Part shown: positions 2,008 to 8,950 of the stretch, in pieces
Numbering within the stretch: position 1 is the first letter of the stretch
Layout: every line of letters starts with the position of its first letter
The notes under the pieces: model-generated
What the model saw: the letters and a program-made list of their open reading frames with translations, nothing else
Told to the model about the DNA's origin: nothing
The model's database searches: none
DNA from: Morganella morganii
Lineage (GTDB): Bacteria > Pseudomonadota > Gammaproteobacteria > Enterobacterales > Enterobacteriaceae
DNA: 64,000 nucleotides
Reading direction: 5' to 3'
Assembly (NCBI RefSeq): GCF_019243775.1
Contig: NZ_CP069157.1
Coordinates: 1,736,001 to 1,800,000 of the forward strand
Program-made: the position numbers and the translations under genes

Positions 2008-3648
2008 ATGGTTAATTCAACGAAAAAAACACTGCTGGCACTCAGTGTGGTAGCAGCAATGGGGATGGGTATTGGTACACAGGCGTTTGCTGCGGATGTA
2101 CCGGCCGGTGTTCAGCTGGCAGATAAGCAGGATTTAATCCGCAATAACGGCTCTGAGCCGCAGTCACTGGATCCGCATAAAGTGGAAGGGGTACCGGAAG
2201 CGAATATTATCCGTGACCTGATGGAAGGTATTACCCTGGAAGGACCAAGTGGTGAAATTCTGCCGGGCTCGGCAATCTCCTGGGAAAATAAAGATTTTAA
2301 AGTCTGGACGTTTAAAATCCGCGAAGATGCAAAATGGTCCAACGGCGACCCGGTCACCGCACAGGACTTCGTTTACAGCTGGCGCCGCCTGGCTGATCCG
2401 AATACCGCATCACCGTATGCCAGTTATCTCCAGTATGCTCACGTGGTGAATATTGATGATGTTATCGCCGGGAAGAAAAAGCCGGAAGAGCTGGGCATCA
2501 AAGCGCTGGATGATAAAACCCTTGAACTGACCCTCTCTGAAGAAGTGCCGTATATTCCGAAACTGCTGGCGCATAACTCCATGTCTCCGGTGCATCCGGC
2601 CACTGTCGAGAAATTCGGTGATAAGTGGACTCAGCCGGGCAATTATGTCAGCAACGGCGCATACACCCTGAAAGACTGGGTGGTTAACGAAAAAATCGAA
2701 CTGACCCGCAACCCGAAATACTGGGATAACGAAAAAACCGTTATTAATAATGTCCGTTTCCTGCCGATTTCCTCTGAAGTTACTGATGTTAACCGCTACC
2801 GCAGCGGTGAAATCGACATGACCTATAACAACCTGCCGATTGAACTGTTCCAGAAACTGAAAAAAGAAATTCCTGACGAACTGCGCATTTCGCCGTATAT
2901 GTGTACCTATTACTACGAAATCAATAACGAAAAAGCGCCGTTTGATAACCCGAAAGTCCGTGAAGCCCTGAAACTGAGCCTTGACCGCGACATTATGGTC
3001 AACAAAGTCAAAGCACAGGGTGATACCCCGGCATTTGGTTTCACACCACCGTTTGCGGATGGTATGTCAGCCAAAGAGCCTGAGTGGTTCGCGAATATGA
3101 CGCAGGAGCAACGTAACGAAAAAGCGCGCAAACTGCTGGAAGAAGCCGGGTTTACCAAAGATAAACCACTGAAATTTAACCTGCTGTATAACACATCTGA
3201 TCTGCACAAGAAAATGGCGATCGCCGCATCGTCTATCTGGAAGAAAAACCTCGGTGCAGAAGTTCAGCTGGTTAACCAGGAATGGAAAACCTTCCTCGAT
3301 ACCCGCCATCAGGGGACTTATGATGTTGCCCGTGCCGCATGGTGTGCGGATTATAACGAACCGTCTTCATTCCTGAATATGGTTCTTTCTTACAGCAGCA
3401 CCAACACTCCGCATTATAAGAGTGCGGAGTTTGATAAGCTGATGAAACAATCCCTTCAGGTGAAAACCGATGCGGAACGTGCGCAGATCTATCAGCAGGC
3501 GGAAGCCCGGCTGGATAAAGACTCTGCCATTGTGCCGGTCTATTACTATGTCAGTACCCGTTTAGTGAAACCGTATGTAGGTGGCTATACCGGAAAAGAT
3601 CCGCTGGATCACTTCCACACCAAAAACTTATATATGATTAAAAAATAA
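2008..3648 (+). CDS. oppA: Oligopeptide-binding protein OppA
   Basis: Periplasmic receptor of the Opp importer, which binds short peptides of almost any sequence; 546 aa against 543 in E. coli. Start chosen at 2008, ten bases after GGGGAG, giving a signal peptide that ends at QAFA|AD (about residue 29). The mature start, ADVPAGVQLADKQ, matches E. coli OppA closely. Long stretches are near identical to it, including NEKAPFDNPKVREALKLSLDR and WCADYNEPSSFLN. It is followed by a strong stem-loop and then oppB, the usual arrangement that lets the binding protein be made in excess over the membrane subunits. Regulation by GcvB is plausible from the CA-rich leader. Confidence 0.97.
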   Translation: MVNSTKKTLLALSVVAAMGMGIGTQAFAADVPAGVQLADKQDLIRNNGSEPQSLDPHKVEGVPEANIIRDLMEGITLEGPSGEILPGSAISWENKDFKVWTFKIREDAKWSNGDPVTAQDFVYSWRRLADPNTASPYASYLQYAHVVNIDDVIAGKKKPEELGIKALDDKTLELTLSEEVPYIPKLLAHNSMSPVHPATVEKFGDKWTQPGNYVSNGAYTLKDWVVNEKIELTRNPKYWDNEKTVINNVRFLPISSEVTDVNRYRSGEIDMTYNNLPIELFQKLKKEIPDELRISPYMCTYYYEINNEKAPFDNPKVREALKLSLDRDIMVNKVKAQGDTPAFGFTPPFADGMSAKEPEWFANMTQEQRNEKARKLLEEAGFTKDKPLKFNLLYNTSDLHKKMAIAASSIWKKNLGAEVQLVNQEWKTFLDTRHQGTYDVARAAWCADYNEPSSFLNMVLSYSSTNTPHYKSAEFDKLMKQSLQVKTDAERAQIYQQAEARLDKDSAIVPVYYYVSTRLVKPYVGGYTGKDPLDHFHTKNLYMIKK

Positions 3649-3727: not shown

Positions 3728-4648
3728 ATGTTTAAGTTTATTCTTCGCCGTATACTCGAGGCGATCCCGACGCTTTTTGTGTTAATTACTATCTCTTTCT
3801 TTATGATGCGTCTGGCTCCGGGCAGTCCATTTACCGGTGAGCGTAAATTGCCGCCGGAAGTGATGGCGAATATTGAAGCCAAGTACCATCTTAATGATCC
3901 GATTCACGTTCAGTATTTTGATTATTTAGTTCAGTTATCAAAGGGGGACTTCGGGCCTTCCTTTAAATATAAAGATTACTCGGTGAATGACCTGGTCGCC
4001 TCCGCGTTTCCGGTCTCCGCAAAACTCGGGCTGGCGGCGTTTGTGCTGGCGCTGATTGTCGGGGTGAGTGCCGGTGTGATAGCGGCACTGAACCAGAACA
4101 CCAAATGGGACTATACCGTCATGGGCTTTGCCATGACCGGGGTGGTTATCCCCAGCTTTGTGGTGGCGCCGCTGCTGGTTCTTATCTTTGCCATCCATCT
4201 GCACTGGCTGCCGGGCGGCGGCTGGAACGGCGGGCAGCTCAGCAATATCATTCTGCCGATGATCGCGCTGTCACTGGCCTATATCGCCAGTATCTCCCGT
4301 ATTATGCGCAGTTCCATGATTGAGGTGATGCACTCCAACTTTATCCGTACCGCACGGGCGAAAGGTCTGCCGATGCGTAAGATTGTCTGGCGGCATGCAC
4401 TGCGCCCGGCACTGTTACCGGTGGTCTCTTATATGGGACCGGCATTTGTGGGGATTATCACGGGTTCAATGGTGATTGAGACGATTTTCGGTTTACCGGG
4501 CGTGGGGCAGTTATTTGTCAACGGCGCGCTGAACCGCGATTACTCTCTGGTGCTGAGTCTGACCATCCTTGTCGGCACACTGACCATCGCCTTTAACTGT
4601 ATCGTTGACGTGCTGTATGCCGTTATCGATCCGAAAATCCGTTATTAG
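3728..4648 (+). CDS. oppB: Oligopeptide ABC transporter permease OppB
   Basis: Inner-membrane permease subunit, 306 aa, the same length as E. coli OppB and highly similar throughout. An N-terminal transmembrane helix is followed by a periplasmic stretch containing RLAPGSPFTGERKLPPE. Five further helices come next. The cytoplasmic EAA loop (about residues 195-225, EVMHSNFIRTARAKGLPMRK) docks onto the ATPases. It pairs with OppC to form the channel and is energised by OppD and OppF. It lies 79 bp after oppA and 14 bp before oppC, in one operon. Confidence 0.98.
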   Translation: MFKFILRRILEAIPTLFVLITISFFMMRLAPGSPFTGERKLPPEVMANIEAKYHLNDPIHVQYFDYLVQLSKGDFGPSFKYKDYSVNDLVASAFPVSAKLGLAAFVLALIVGVSAGVIAALNQNTKWDYTVMGFAMTGVVIPSFVVAPLLVLIFAIHLHWLPGGGWNGGQLSNIILPMIALSLAYIASISRIMRSSMIEVMHSNFIRTARAKGLPMRKIVWRHALRPALLPVVSYMGPAFVGIITGSMVIETIFGLPGVGQLFVNGALNRDYSLVLSLTILVGTLTIAFNCIVDVLYAVIDPKIRY

Positions 4649-4662
4649 TCCCGGAGCACGCT

Positions 4663-5571
4663 ATGTTACCGAATGAAAAAAACCGCGAAGCTCTGGAAAA
4701 TTTCACGGAGCAGCTTGATGTCGAAGGACGCAGCCTGTGGGCGGATGCCCGCCGCCGCTTTATGCATAACAAAGCCGCGATCACCAGTCTGTGTCTGTTG
4801 TTTTTAATTACCCTGTTTGTGATTTTTATGCCGATGCTGTCGGAGTTCGCCTATGACGATACCGACTGGGGCATGATGTCCGCAGCACCGGATACGGAGA
4901 GCGGCCACTATTTTGGTACCGACTCCTCCGGCCGTGATCTGCTGGTGCGTGTGGCTATCGGCGGGCGTATCTCGCTGATGGTGGGACTGGCGGCAGCGCT
5001 GGTCGCTGTGCTGGTGGGAACACTGTACGGCGCGATGTCCGGCTATGTCGGCGGCAAAACTGACTCGGTCATGATGCGCGTGCTGGAAATCCTCAACTCC
5101 TTCCCGTTTATGTTCTTTGTTATCCTGCTGGTGACCTTCTTTGGTCAGAATATTTTTCTGATTTTCGTGGCTATCGGCATGGTTTCCTGGCTGGATATGG
5201 CGCGTATTGTGCGCGGCCAGACACTGAGCCTGAAGAGCAAAGAATTTATTGAGGCGGCGAAGGTCTGTGGTGTGCCGACCCGCAATATCATTCTGCGTCA
5301 TATTGTCCCGAACGTGCTGGGTGTGGTGGTGGTTTACGCCTCACTGCTGGTGCCGAGTATGATCCTGTTTGAATCCTTCCTCAGCTTCCTCGGGCTGGGC
5401 ACACAGGAGCCGTTAAGCAGTTGGGGCGCGCTGCTCAATGACGGTGCTAACTCAATGGAAGTTTCGCCCTGGTTACTGATGTTCCCGGCAGCATTCCTGG
5501 TGGTGACTCTGTTTTGTTTTAACTTTATCGGTGACGGGCTGCGCGATGCCCTTGACCCGAAAGATCGCTGA
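4663..5571 (+). CDS. oppC: Oligopeptide ABC transporter permease OppC
   Basis: Second channel-forming subunit of the Opp importer, 302 aa as in E. coli. The cytoplasmic N-terminus (LENFTEQLDVEGRSLWADARRRF) is characteristic of OppC. One transmembrane helix follows near residues 45-65, then a periplasmic domain with YFGTDSSGRDLLVR, five more helices, and the EAA loop (EFIEAAKVCGVPTRN) near residues 190-205. It sits between oppB and oppD, with an 11-bp gap to oppD that carries the oppD ribosome site (GAGGAGG). Confidence 0.98.
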   Translation: MLPNEKNREALENFTEQLDVEGRSLWADARRRFMHNKAAITSLCLLFLITLFVIFMPMLSEFAYDDTDWGMMSAAPDTESGHYFGTDSSGRDLLVRVAIGGRISLMVGLAAALVAVLVGTLYGAMSGYVGGKTDSVMMRVLEILNSFPFMFFVILLVTFFGQNIFLIFVAIGMVSWLDMARIVRGQTLSLKSKEFIEAAKVCGVPTRNIILRHIVPNVLGVVVVYASLLVPSMILFESFLSFLGLGTQEPLSSWGALLNDGANSMEVSPWLLMFPAAFLVVTLFCFNFIGDGLRDALDPKDR

Positions 5572-5582
5572 GGAGGCCGCCA

Positions 5583-6557
5583 ATGACTCAGTTATTACAG
5601 GTTAACGACCTGAACGTGACATTCAAAACGCCGGACGGCGATGTCACCGCCGTAAACAAACTTAATTTTTCGCTGGCGGCGGGTGAGACACTCGGGATTG
5701 TCGGTGAATCCGGCTCCGGGAAATCACAGACAGCGTTTGCGCTGATGGGACTGCTGGCCCGCAATGGTGTGGTCAGCGGCTCTGCGGTGTTCAACGGGCG
5801 TGAAATTCTCAATCTGAAAGAAAAAGCGCTGAACAAAATGCGGGCGGAAGAGATTTCCATGATCTTCCAGGATCCGATGACCTCGCTCAATCCGTACATG
5901 AAAGTCAGCAAACAGCTGACAGAAGTGCTGATGCTGCATAAAGGTCTGAGTTCTCACGATGCGTTTGAGGAATCTGTCCGGATGCTGGACGCGGTGAAAA
6001 TGCCGGAAGCCCGCAAACGGATGAATATGTATCCTCATGAGTTCTCCGGCGGGATGCGCCAGCGCGTTATGATTGCGATGGCGCTGCTGTGCAAGCCGAA
6101 GCTGCTGATTGCGGATGAACCGACCACGGCACTGGATGTGACGGTGCAGGCGCAAATCATGACGCTGCTCAATGAGCTGAAGAATGAGTTCAATACGGCG
6201 ATTATTATGATCACCCATGACCTGGGTGTGGTCGCCGGTATCTGCGATAAGGTGTTGGTGATGTATGCCGGACGTACCATGGAATACGGCACGGCCCGTG
6301 ATGTGTTCTACCATCCGTCGCATCCGTACTCTATCGGGCTGCTTAAAGCGGTTCCGCGCCTTGACGGGCAGGAAGACAGTGAGCTCGCCACGATACCCGG
6401 CAACCCGCCGAACCTCCTGCGTCTCCCGGCAGGCTGTCCGTTCCGCCCGCGCTGCCAGTATGCGACAGACGAGTGTGCGCGGCATGAGCCGCCGTTACAG
6501 GCATTTTCTCAGGGCCGTTTGCGTGCCTGCTTCAGAACTGCAGAGGAGTTGGCATAA
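5583..6557 (+). CDS. oppD: Oligopeptide ABC transporter ATP-binding protein OppD
   Basis: ATPase subunit of the Opp importer, 324 aa; E. coli OppD is 337 aa because of a longer N-terminus. Walker A is GESGSGKS at residues 41-48, the ABC signature is FSGGMRQR, and Walker B is LLIADEPT. The C-terminal oligopeptide/dipeptide domain ([19 protein letters not shown]) carries the conserved cysteines. It works as a heterodimer with OppF on the cytoplasmic face of OppBC. Its stop overlaps the oppF start by one base (TAATG), a sign of translational coupling. Confidence 0.98.
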
Positions 6558-7555
6558 TGACACATTCAGAACGTCCGGTTCTGCTGGAAATTGAAGATTT
6601 AAAAGTCCATTTTTCCATCAGAGATAACAAACAATGGTTCTGGCAGCCGGCAAAAAGCCTGAAAGCGGTGGATGGTGTGACTGTCCGTCTGTATGAAGGG
6701 GAAACACTCGGTGTGGTCGGGGAGTCCGGCTGCGGGAAATCCACGTTTGCCCGCGCGATTATCGGCCTGGTGAAATCCACGGCCGGCCGGGTAACCTGGC
6801 TGGGCAAAGACCTGTGCGGTATGAGTGAAAAAGACTGGCACAATGTCCGCAATGACATCCAGATGATTTTCCAGGATCCGCTGGCATCACTTAACCCGCG
6901 TATGACTATCGGCGATATTATTGCGGAGCCGCTGCGCACCTATTATCCGTCAATGAGTAAGACGGAAGTGACAGACAAAGTCAAAGCCATGATGATGAAA
7001 GTCGGGCTGCTGCCAAACCTGGTGAACCGCTATCCGCATGAGTTTTCCGGCGGACAGTGTCAGCGTATCGGTATCGCCCGCGCGCTTATCCTCGAGCCGA
7101 AACTGGTTATCTGTGATGAGCCGGTTTCAGCGCTGGATGTGTCTATTCAGGCTCAGGTGGTGAACCTGCTGAAGGAATTACAGCGGGAGATGGGATTGTC
7201 CCTTATTTTTATTGCTCATGACCTGGCGGTGGTGAAACACATTTCTGACCGTGTGCTGGTGATGTATCTCGGCCACGCCGTGGAACTCGGTACGTATGAC
7301 GAGGTGTATCATAACCCGCTGCATCCGTACACCAAAGCGCTGATGTCTGCGGTGCCGGTGCCGGATCCGGACAAAGAGCAGAATAAAACAATTCAGCTGC
7401 TGGAAGGGGAACTGCCGTCACCGATTAATCCGCCGTCCGGTTGTGTCTTCCGCACCCGCTGTCCGCTGGCGGACAGTGAATGCGCAAGAACCCGGCCGCT
7501 GCTGGAAGGCAGTTTCCGCCATGCAGTTTCCTGCCTGAAGGTTGATCCGCTGTAA
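6557..7555 (+). CDS. oppF: Oligopeptide ABC transporter ATP-binding protein OppF
   Basis: Second ATPase of the Opp importer, 332 aa. Walker A is GESGCGKS (residues 55-62), the signature is FSGGQCQRIGIARAL, and Walker B is LVICDEPVSALDV. The C-terminal peptide-transporter domain holds SGCVFRTRCPLADSEC. The longer N-terminal segment with QWFWQPAKSLKAVDG is typical of OppF rather than OppD. It is the last gene of the operon and is followed within 40 bp by a strong terminator. Confidence 0.98.
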   Translation: MTHSERPVLLEIEDLKVHFSIRDNKQWFWQPAKSLKAVDGVTVRLYEGETLGVVGESGCGKSTFARAIIGLVKSTAGRVTWLGKDLCGMSEKDWHNVRNDIQMIFQDPLASLNPRMTIGDIIAEPLRTYYPSMSKTEVTDKVKAMMMKVGLLPNLVNRYPHEFSGGQCQRIGIARALILEPKLVICDEPVSALDVSIQAQVVNLLKELQREMGLSLIFIAHDLAVVKHISDRVLVMYLGHAVELGTYDEVYHNPLHPYTKALMSAVPVPDPDKEQNKTIQLLEGELPSPINPPSGCVFRTRCPLADSECARTRPLLEGSFRHAVSCLKVDPL

Positions 7556-7590: not shown

Positions 7591-7616
7591 AGCGCCCGGT
7601 ACGGGCGCTTTTTTTT
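7591..7616 (+). terminator. Rho-independent terminator of the opp operon
   Basis: Perfect 8-bp stem AGCGCCCG / CGGGCGCT with a GTA loop, running straight into eight T residues. It lies 36 bp after the oppF stop. Confidence 0.93.
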
Positions 7617-7745
7617 CATCTCCGCATCCTGCTTTTCCGCACCAGCCGCAAAATCTGACAGAGCGTACTTCGCGGCCTTGCAGGCAGCTTACTGATTCCG
7701 TTATTAAAAAGCACAGCCGGTTTTTCAGGTGTGTTAATATTGGGG

Positions 7746-7776
7746 TGTTGACGAACGTCAACATATAAACTACAGT
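7746..7776 (+). promoter_or_regulatory. Palindromic operator with promoter-like elements before the two-gene module
   Basis: A perfect inverted repeat, TGTTGAC-GAAC-GTCAACA, occupies 7746-7763. It contains a good -35 hexamer (TTGACG, 7748-7753). A -10-like TACAGT lies 17 bp further on at 7771-7776, and TATAAA at 7764-7769 is an alternative. The layout, an operator over the -35 a few bases before the first gene, is typical of an autoregulated toxin-antitoxin or regulator operon. The 7771-7776 placement would leave almost no leader before the ATG at 7788, so the exact -10 is uncertain. Confidence 0.5.
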
Positions 7777-7787
7777 AGGTACAGGAA

Positions 7788-8012
7788 ATGAAGAAACATC
7801 CGGATAAACATATTCAGTCCGCGATTGAATATGCACTGTTACAGGGATGGGTATGGATTGCGCCGGGGAATTCCTCGCATGCATTCTGCCGGTTACGGTG
7901 CGGGTCACCGAATGATGAGCACCGGCAGCATCAGATGAGCGTCTGGTCAACACCACGGAATCCGGAAAACCATGCAAAGCAGATCAGACGAAAAGTGGAT
8001 GCCTGTCAGTGA
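7788..8012 (+). CDS. Small HicA-like protein, putative toxin of a two-gene module
   Basis: 74 aa, basic, no signal peptide or membrane segment. An N-terminal helix (IQSAIEYALLQGW) leads to a loop GNSSHAFCRL, then two cysteines and a conserved-looking block MSVWSTPRNPENHAKQIRRK. The small size, the GW, and a G..SH motif before a beta-strand recall HicA mRNA interferases, whose catalytic histidine lies in a similar G-S-H context. That is resemblance by eye, not a proven relationship. It has its own promoter-operator upstream and an AGGA ribosome site. A DNA-binding-type partner follows 27 bp downstream in the same direction, fitting toxin-first (HicAB-like) order. E. coli has no gene here between oppF and yciU, so it looks acquired. 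Function unproven. Confidence 0.6.
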   Translation: MKKHPDKHIQSAIEYALLQGWVWIAPGNSSHAFCRLRCGSPNDEHRQHQMSVWSTPRNPENHAKQIRRKVDACQ

Positions 8013-8039
8013 AAACGGGCAGCAGGAAAGGGGGAAACG

Positions 8040-8597
8040 ATGGCACTGTATAATTTTACGCTGACGCTGTCCGGTGTGACAGCAGATACAGAGAACCTGG
8101 AGGATGCCTTATTTGCAGGCGGTTGTGATGATGCATTACTCTGTTTTTACGGTAAATCAGTCTATCTGGAATTTGACCGGGAAGCACCGTCTCTGGATTG
8201 TGCAATCCGTACGGCGGTGGAAGATGCGGAGTCAGCCGGTGTGAATGCACGGGTGGAATCGGTGGATTCTGCTCTTGTCGGCCTGAGTGATATTGCGGAA
8301 CTGACTGGTATGTCACGTCAGGCAATCGCGTTGCTCAAAGATGGTGCGCGCGGCCCGGGCACCTTTCCGGGGCCGGTGCAGCGGCTGCGCGGGCAATCCC
8401 CGTTATGGGACTGGGCTGCGGTCGCGTCCTGGCTGATGGCACAAGGGCGGTTGGCTGCACATTCTGAGATGGCAGAAAATGCAAAAATTATCAGCAAATG
8501 GAATCTTGCATTACGTGCAGGGGCTGCAGAGGATCCCGCTGAAATTGACATTATCACAAGGTCATTAATCGCCCGGCGTGAAAAATGCCGCTGCTGA
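8040..8597 (+). CDS. HTH protein, putative antitoxin/regulator partner of the HicA-like protein
   Basis: 185 aa, acidic N-terminal half with a helix-turn-helix in the middle. Residues 1-80 look like an alpha/beta domain (YNFTLTLSGV, then LLCFYGKSVYLEFD and a helix). Residues 80-100 (LVGLSDIAELTGMSRQAIALL) read as a MerR/AlpA-type helix-turn-helix, followed by FPGPVQRLRGQSPLWDWAAVASWL, the wing pattern of excisionase-like proteins. The start follows a GGGGG ribosome site five bases upstream. It is the natural candidate to bind the palindrome at 7746-7763 and to neutralise or control the 74-aa protein. It ends 21 bp before the convergent yciU. The family is not one I can name with certainty. 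Confidence 0.65.
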   Translation: MALYNFTLTLSGVTADTENLEDALFAGGCDDALLCFYGKSVYLEFDREAPSLDCAIRTAVEDAESAGVNARVESVDSALVGLSDIAELTGMSRQAIALLKDGARGPGTFPGPVQRLRGQSPLWDWAAVASWLMAQGRLAAHSEMAENAKIISKWNLALRAGAAEDPAEIDIITRSLIARREKCRC

Positions 8598-8617: not shown

Positions 8618-8950
8618 TTATTCCCGCCAGCGGACAGCGTATTCCGGTGAGCCGGTAAAATGCCGGGAAATCAGCACACGGGCAAAAATCTGATCGATAT
8701 CTGCATTTTCATCCGGAGCCAGGCCGATAACCACTTCGGCACATTCCGGGTTTTGTGCCAGAAAAGGTGCAAACTCTGACCAGTCACTGCCGGTTGGTAC
8801 AATTTCAGCACCGCCGATCTCTTCAAACTGAAGGTTAAACAGCAGGACGTCTGCCGGGTCAAGGTTATCCATTGCCTGTTCCAGAAACAGGTCATAGGCC
8901 ATTTCAATCGTTTCCTGCTCGCTGAGGCGACGGGGAAGAGAGGTACTCAT
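8618..8950 (-). CDS. yciU: YciU family (DUF440) protein
   Basis: 110 aa, acidic, close to E. coli YciU (109 aa). The shared core includes NLDPADVLLFNLQFEE, EVVIGLA and the terminal WRE. DUF440 proteins are small acidic proteins described as double-stranded-DNA mimics; the precise cellular role is unsettled. The gene lies downstream of cls on the same strand, as in E. coli, with 69 bp between them. No signal peptide. Confidence 0.93.
   Translation of the reverse strand: MSTSLPRRLSEQETIEMAYDLFLEQAMDNLDPADVLLFNLQFEEIGGAEIVPTGSDWSEFAPFLAQNPECAEVVIGLAPDENADIDQIFARVLISRHFTGSPEYAVRWRE

Follow-up and report, generated by a model that had tools for sequence, protein, structure and literature searches.

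HicA domains have been described in 14 contexts, and HicA toxins were sorted by their partners (Gerdes 2024; PMC10865869); as described in the available text of that survey, none of the contexts consists of HicA followed by a ferredoxin-like/MerR-type partner. Phage Adephagia encodes a HicA-like toxin and a HicB-like antitoxin (gp91/gp90), for which toxicity and neutralisation were shown by the authors. In the phage-plasmid Cyrano, a pair called HicA-HicB was expressed well above the prophage background, 30- and 14-fold over the local background (PMC9928086). In addition, the PDC systems of PADLOC are presented as untested candidates from guilt-by-embedding (PMC12988326, PMC10855318). Here, a two-gene module (genes A and B) was analyzed in a 64,000-nucleotide stretch of the Morganella morganii chromosome, hereafter the window (positions 1736001-1800000 of the 3,814,728-base genome, G000). 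The module is widespread in bacteria, is borne by phage-plasmids as well and is already listed as a candidate phage-defence system. It most likely encodes a small toxin that cuts RNA, together with a DNA-binding partner by which the toxin is restrained and the shared promoter is shut off. Genes A and B lie in the same direction between oppF and yciU, and both open reading frames (ORFs) and the 27 bp between them are where an initial annotation of the window had placed them:

7788..8012, forward strand: gene A, putative toxin of 74 aa with a predicted HicA fold; matches PDC-M06A (E 8.5e-21) and PHROG 5923 (E 1.5e-39)
8040..8597, forward strand: gene B, putative antitoxin and autorepressor of 185 aa; matches PDC-M06B (E 2.7e-33) and PHROG 2620 (E 7.2e-82)

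The initial annotation had called the pair undescribed, which does not hold. A and B match both profiles of the PADLOC-DB candidate PDC-M06 over almost their full length and in adjacent genes, and homologues of the pair occur in SSU5-type phage-plasmids (CYRAN_51/CYRAN_50 and SSU5_055/SSU5_054), where annotators named them HicA/HicB or AlpA-like. In Cyrano, the names given are 'HicA toxin protein' and 'putative antitoxin HicB' (PMC9928086). The Morganella pair differs from these in being chromosomal. A literature text search, which did not cover preprints, found no paper under the name PDC-M06. The present analysis adds the fold, the operator and the pattern of gene damage to this candidate.

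The predicted structure shows A to be a HicA-fold protein, i.e., similar to a double-stranded RNA-binding domain, which bears out the likeness proposed earlier for the 74-aa protein. Nine residues (H4, H31, W53, S54, T55, P56, H62, Q65 and C73) were invariant in 62 rows of homologues. For H31, conserved in 62/62, the hhalign alignment to HicA agreed with the G-S-H-H loop to within one residue, and the glycine upstream of it was not invariant. In the Adephagia toxin, the active-site residues G28 and H31 are comparable to G27 and H31 of A; in that system, however, the antitoxin gene comes first and encodes a 65-aa protein with a HicB-like fold, and the authors assign it to HicAB class 2. At the level of sequence, the Pfam HicA profile PF07927 matched neither A (at E ≤ 1) nor anything else in its own genome, and it was not among the 17 families matched by the 62 homologues. 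NCBIfam held no family for the window proteins and nothing credible for the A homologues, and a sequence search of solved structures with A returned no HicA. A likeness of 27/62 homologues to the RuBisCO small subunit (best E 5.9e-5; 15 bits for the window protein against a cut-off of 27) was taken as chance.

Two further observations concern the A family. A divergent A-like frame without the WSTP block precedes a B homologue on a Xenorhabdus plasmid (L240, NZ_CP147735.1, about 2190-2420); since this block is invariant in the 62 rows, the family is wider than these. In a subgroup of homologues (L053, L056, L063 and L058), an insert adds further cysteines (C-R-C-G-x-F-C) to the invariant H31 and C73, and these may form a metal site.

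For B, the models predicted a ferredoxin-like N-domain (residues 1-78), a MerR/terminase/AlpA-type winged HTH (about 78-136) and C-terminal helices (139-183), so that the helix-turn-helix (HTH) of MerR/AlpA type assumed for the partner was recovered in the predicted structure. The N-domain model follows a beta-alpha-beta-beta-alpha-beta order, and its listed structure matches are ferredoxin-like; none of the 50 matches listed, out of 997 chains aligned, was a HicB by title. Against the HicB hidden Markov model, B scored 16.3, 2.7%. Some B homologues showed weak Pfam HTH matches and no known family (among the 25 of 70 families listed). Searching the sequences of solved structures with B yielded an AlpA-family protein (E 0.02) and a stronger match, 8vd6_A 'CAP repeat' (E 3.1e-5), whose profile positions 47-101 straddle two domains. 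Judged from these models, B does not look like a classic HicB antitoxin. In another genome (G188:C1:2638224-2638784; loci L141, L143 and L144), a 230-codon open frame holds three tandem matches to the B HTH region.

Among the known systems closest to this arrangement are HicAB classes 3 and 4 of Gerdes, in which HicB carries a C-terminal HTH or ribbon-helix-helix domain. Shared with these are a small HicA-fold protein encoded first, a DNA-binding partner encoded second, a promoter palindrome and the position of the active-site histidine. The differences are that A has no PF07927 match, that the N-domain of B has a ferredoxin-like model containing one additional helix, and that the HTH of B is MerR/terminase-like. 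The pair might still be an ordinary diverged HicAB, with the N-domain of B a drifted version of the partial RNase H fold of HicB and the module belonging to a known hicAB class with HTH-bearing HicB. The gene order, the short gap, the HicA-like fold and the label given by the Cyrano annotators are in line with this, and we nevertheless hold it to be unlikely. The module probably works like HicAB; A has the active-site histidine after the first strand, yet the toxin profile PF07927 is not matched and the antitoxin fold may differ, and the pair is regarded as a variant rather than a plain HicAB member.

Pairing of the two genes was strict. From 158 confirmed loci found by searching with A, 80 genome-contig loci were kept, and B lay downstream of A in 80/80, in support of conserved pairing across phyla. 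The gap between the matched parts ranged from -14 to 236 bases (80 loci and the window). Searching with B first, A was found beside it in 16/16 genomes with E<1e-30 within the class (369 genomes; ten more had only a partial or HTH-only B match) and in 7/8 within the phylum (150 genomes). The pairwise identities of A and B correlated (r 0.79, 59 rows), and shared descent alone would give such a correlation.

Gene intactness was scored by one fixed rule. In the genome loci (80 and the window), both genes were intact in 74/81; four had a broken A with an intact B, one had damage in both, and two had an intact A with a partial B, one of which (L039) is truncated where its contig stops. Both genes were intact in 35/37 viral loci, with one case each of broken A with intact B and of intact A with partial B. 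Among the loci found by B, 15/20 were intact, four had a broken A and one lacked A, with a readable remnant. In total, there are ten distinct loci at which B has outlived A. Two loci (L017 and L233) are real examples of the opposite kind, and both kept the N-domain of B and lost the HTH. This one-sided damage is as expected if A by itself does harm and is restrained by the N-domain of B. The counts are to be read with caution, since the B-first locus L169 repeats the genome locus L065, 19/37 viral loci are mutual near-copies, L217, the viral locus in which A is broken, shares 99.9% identity with a locus scored as intact, and several other loci are draft assemblies; moreover, the A-first sets cannot reveal loci that lost A entirely. 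In L233 (about 4270-4870), where B consists of the N-domain only, no operator was found, and a small ORF further on appeared XRE-type HTH-like by eye.

Upstream of A, the following promoter elements were predicted:

7746..7763, strand not assigned: predicted palindromic operator TGTTGACG-AA-CGTCAACA (8-2-8); the left arm holds the -35, and the site is conserved 5' of A homologues
7748..7753, forward strand: -35 hexamer TTGACG, within the operator
7771..7776, forward strand: -10-like hexamer TACAGT, 17 bp past the -35, with only a 4/6 consensus match

The palindrome is the site that the initial annotation had read as 7-4-7 over the -35, which it does cover; its arms are one base longer. The 16-bp operator core GTTGACNNNNGTCAAC has a single occurrence in the genome, namely this one, and similar palindromes lie upstream of A homologues across phyla; it is thus not a chance palindrome, and its reading as a dedicated, conserved site over the promoter held up. 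The region upstream of A was scanned in 84 loci, a few of which are Morganella near-copies (80 genome-contig loci, the window and the three phage/plasmid loci L091-L093). A GTTGAC or GTTGTC site was present exactly in 54/84, with up to one mismatch in 65 and with up to two in 73, and 11 had none. In comparison, 2,800 windows of equal length elsewhere in those loci gave no exact site, one with one mismatch and 24 with two. When the GTTTAC form was also counted, a site with at most one mismatch was found in 31 of the 37 viral contigs and was missing in six. The idea that operator loss marks HTH loss (L017, L023 and L233) was dropped, as most loci without the site keep the HTH.

Taken together, we consider the pair likely to be a self-contained type II toxin-antitoxin module, in which the HicA-fold toxin A would be masked by the partner B, which would also repress its own promoter. 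A would most likely be an mRNA-cutting toxin with H31 as the active-site histidine. B would bind and mask A, most likely via its ferredoxin-like N-domain, and would dimerise, probably through the C-terminal helices. The MerR-type winged helix of B would occupy the palindrome, which overlaps the -35 box, and B is therefore proposed to repress its own promoter. Upon loss of B, A would be freed and transcription would rise. The expected use is abortive infection against phages or maintenance on a carrier, for example a phage-plasmid of the SSU5 type. A bolder version, which is possible if rather doubtful, is that B represents a new kind of HicA antitoxin. A ferredoxin-like domain would then replace HicB in masking the HicA RNase and might also sense a ligand that phages make or take, and the MerR-type winged helix and its operator would have diverged together, giving at least three types of half-site (GTTGAC, GTTGTC and GTTTAC). 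If a ferredoxin-like/MerR-type antitoxin of a HicA toxin is confirmed, it would add a HicA partner class found from Enterobacterales to cyanobacteria and in phage-plasmids, would give an orphan defence candidate a testable mechanism and would provide a natural repressor-operator set with three half-site types for the study of specificity change.

These half-site forms were named type I (GTTGAC, including the window), type II (GTTGTC) and type III (GTTTAC). A -10 hexamer with 4/6 or more consensus positions was found 16-18 bp past the left arm in 76% of the type I loci (n=46), as compared to 23% for shuffled downstream sequence. In the type II loci (n=18), such a match was found from the right arm in 61% (22% when shuffled) and from the left arm in 33% (23%). 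The form tracks the B subfamily more than the host: 7/21 type II tree rows are cyanobacterial and the remainder proteobacterial, type III hosts include Moraxella, Actinobacillus and Oceanospirillaceae, and the cyanobacterial assembly L047 is type I, with a B that groups with type I rows on a long branch. The recognition helix of B reads SRQN or TRQN in 19/21 type II rows, versus 0/32 type I and 0/5 type III rows. Many B columns outside the HTH rank equally high in covariation with operator type. A single branch (support 100/100) sets off a group of 25 rows that holds all 21 type II rows and four without a site, so that the covariation of helix and operator counts as one split and not as independent evidence. 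The type III rows fall within the type I part of the tree (five rows, two of which, L015 and L037, were assigned by eye; four changes). The covariation of recognition helix and operator type is thus suggestive and reflects few splits of one tree.

The predicted transcript starts only about 5 bases before the start codon of A, and a purine-rich stretch precedes the start of B. Given this spacing, A may be poorly translated from the predicted promoter. The predicted transcript resembles the P2 transcript of E. coli hicAB, from which hicA is not translated (PMC10865869).

The surroundings of the module in the window comprise:

6557-7555: oppF
7591..7617, forward strand: likely intrinsic terminator of the opp operon (perfect 8-bp stem, 3-nt loop, T run), an inverted repeat judged by eye
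8618-8950, reverse strand: yciU, HI1450/DUF440 family

As the terminator separates the module from oppF, the A-B pair looks like a unit of its own. It was present at the identical oppF-yciU site in 5/6 Morganella genomes (the window, G001, G002, G004 and G005). In the sixth (G003; locus L155, about 1250-1500), the operator, A and the front of B are deleted and a decayed piece of B remains. An E. coli phage-plasmid (L239, NZ_CP141793.1, about 2846-3516) has likewise lost the operator, A and the first residues of B, with the rest of B remaining; the two deletions, each removing operator, A and front of B together, are separate events. The Morganella copy is expected to be an inherited, chromosomal one.

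Neighbouring genes were compared in 146 ORFs (loci L004 and L006-L080, taking on either side the closest ORF with a length of 80 aa or more; ORFs above 2.7 kb dropped, Morganella loci excluded). A conserved third gene was rejected, as no Pfam or PADLOC family was matched by more than 3/146. This bears on the suggestion that the pair is phage-derived and regulatory rather than a toxin-antitoxin, with B an AlpA/Xis-type mobile-element regulator and A a small cofactor that binds RNA or DNA. The PHROG 2620 category ('excisionase and transcriptional regulator'), the SSU5 annotation 'AlpA-like' and the occurrence in phage-plasmids and viral contigs point that way; the lack of a recurrent neighbour, the restriction of the operator core to this one promoter of the Morganella genome and the retention between oppF and yciU make it quite improbable. 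Defence families did occur among the neighbours (PDC-M42C in 3/146; mad3, mad8, IetA, AriA and AbiLi in two each; 25 of 94 families listed). Together with the PADLOC candidate status, and with ferredoxin-like folds frequently binding ligands, they could favour an effector pair dedicated to defence against phages, with B sensing infection by its ferredoxin-like domain and releasing A, instead of a classical labile-antitoxin module. The listed neighbour families are, however, diverse and mostly non-defence, and this explanation is very improbable. A self-contained toxin-antitoxin module remains the preferred reading.

Ratios of nonsynonymous to synonymous substitution (dN/dS), determined by comparison with a second M. 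morganii genome and two genomes of M. psychrotolerans, were 0.035-0.049 for A, 0.051-0.078 for B and 0.014-0.037 for oppF. The ratios of A and B against M. psychrotolerans are rough, with dS >1. These sequence comparisons show purifying selection on both genes. Using the window protein as the query, A was present in 10/60 relatives. By tblastn against 72,556 plasmid records, A was found in 230 and B in 281; 217/230 A-bearing plasmids are predicted to be non-mobilizable, and 40 listed ones measure 91-139 kb. In 50,697 phage records, A occurred in three, Cyrano and two SSU5 records. The statement that the insert is absent in E. coli was correct for the oppF-yciU site of K-12 MG1655, where the spacing is 52 bp, but not for the species: a megablast search found the Cyrano-type pair in 110/5,426 complete E. 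coli genomes, with all 110 places located on plasmids and none on a chromosome.
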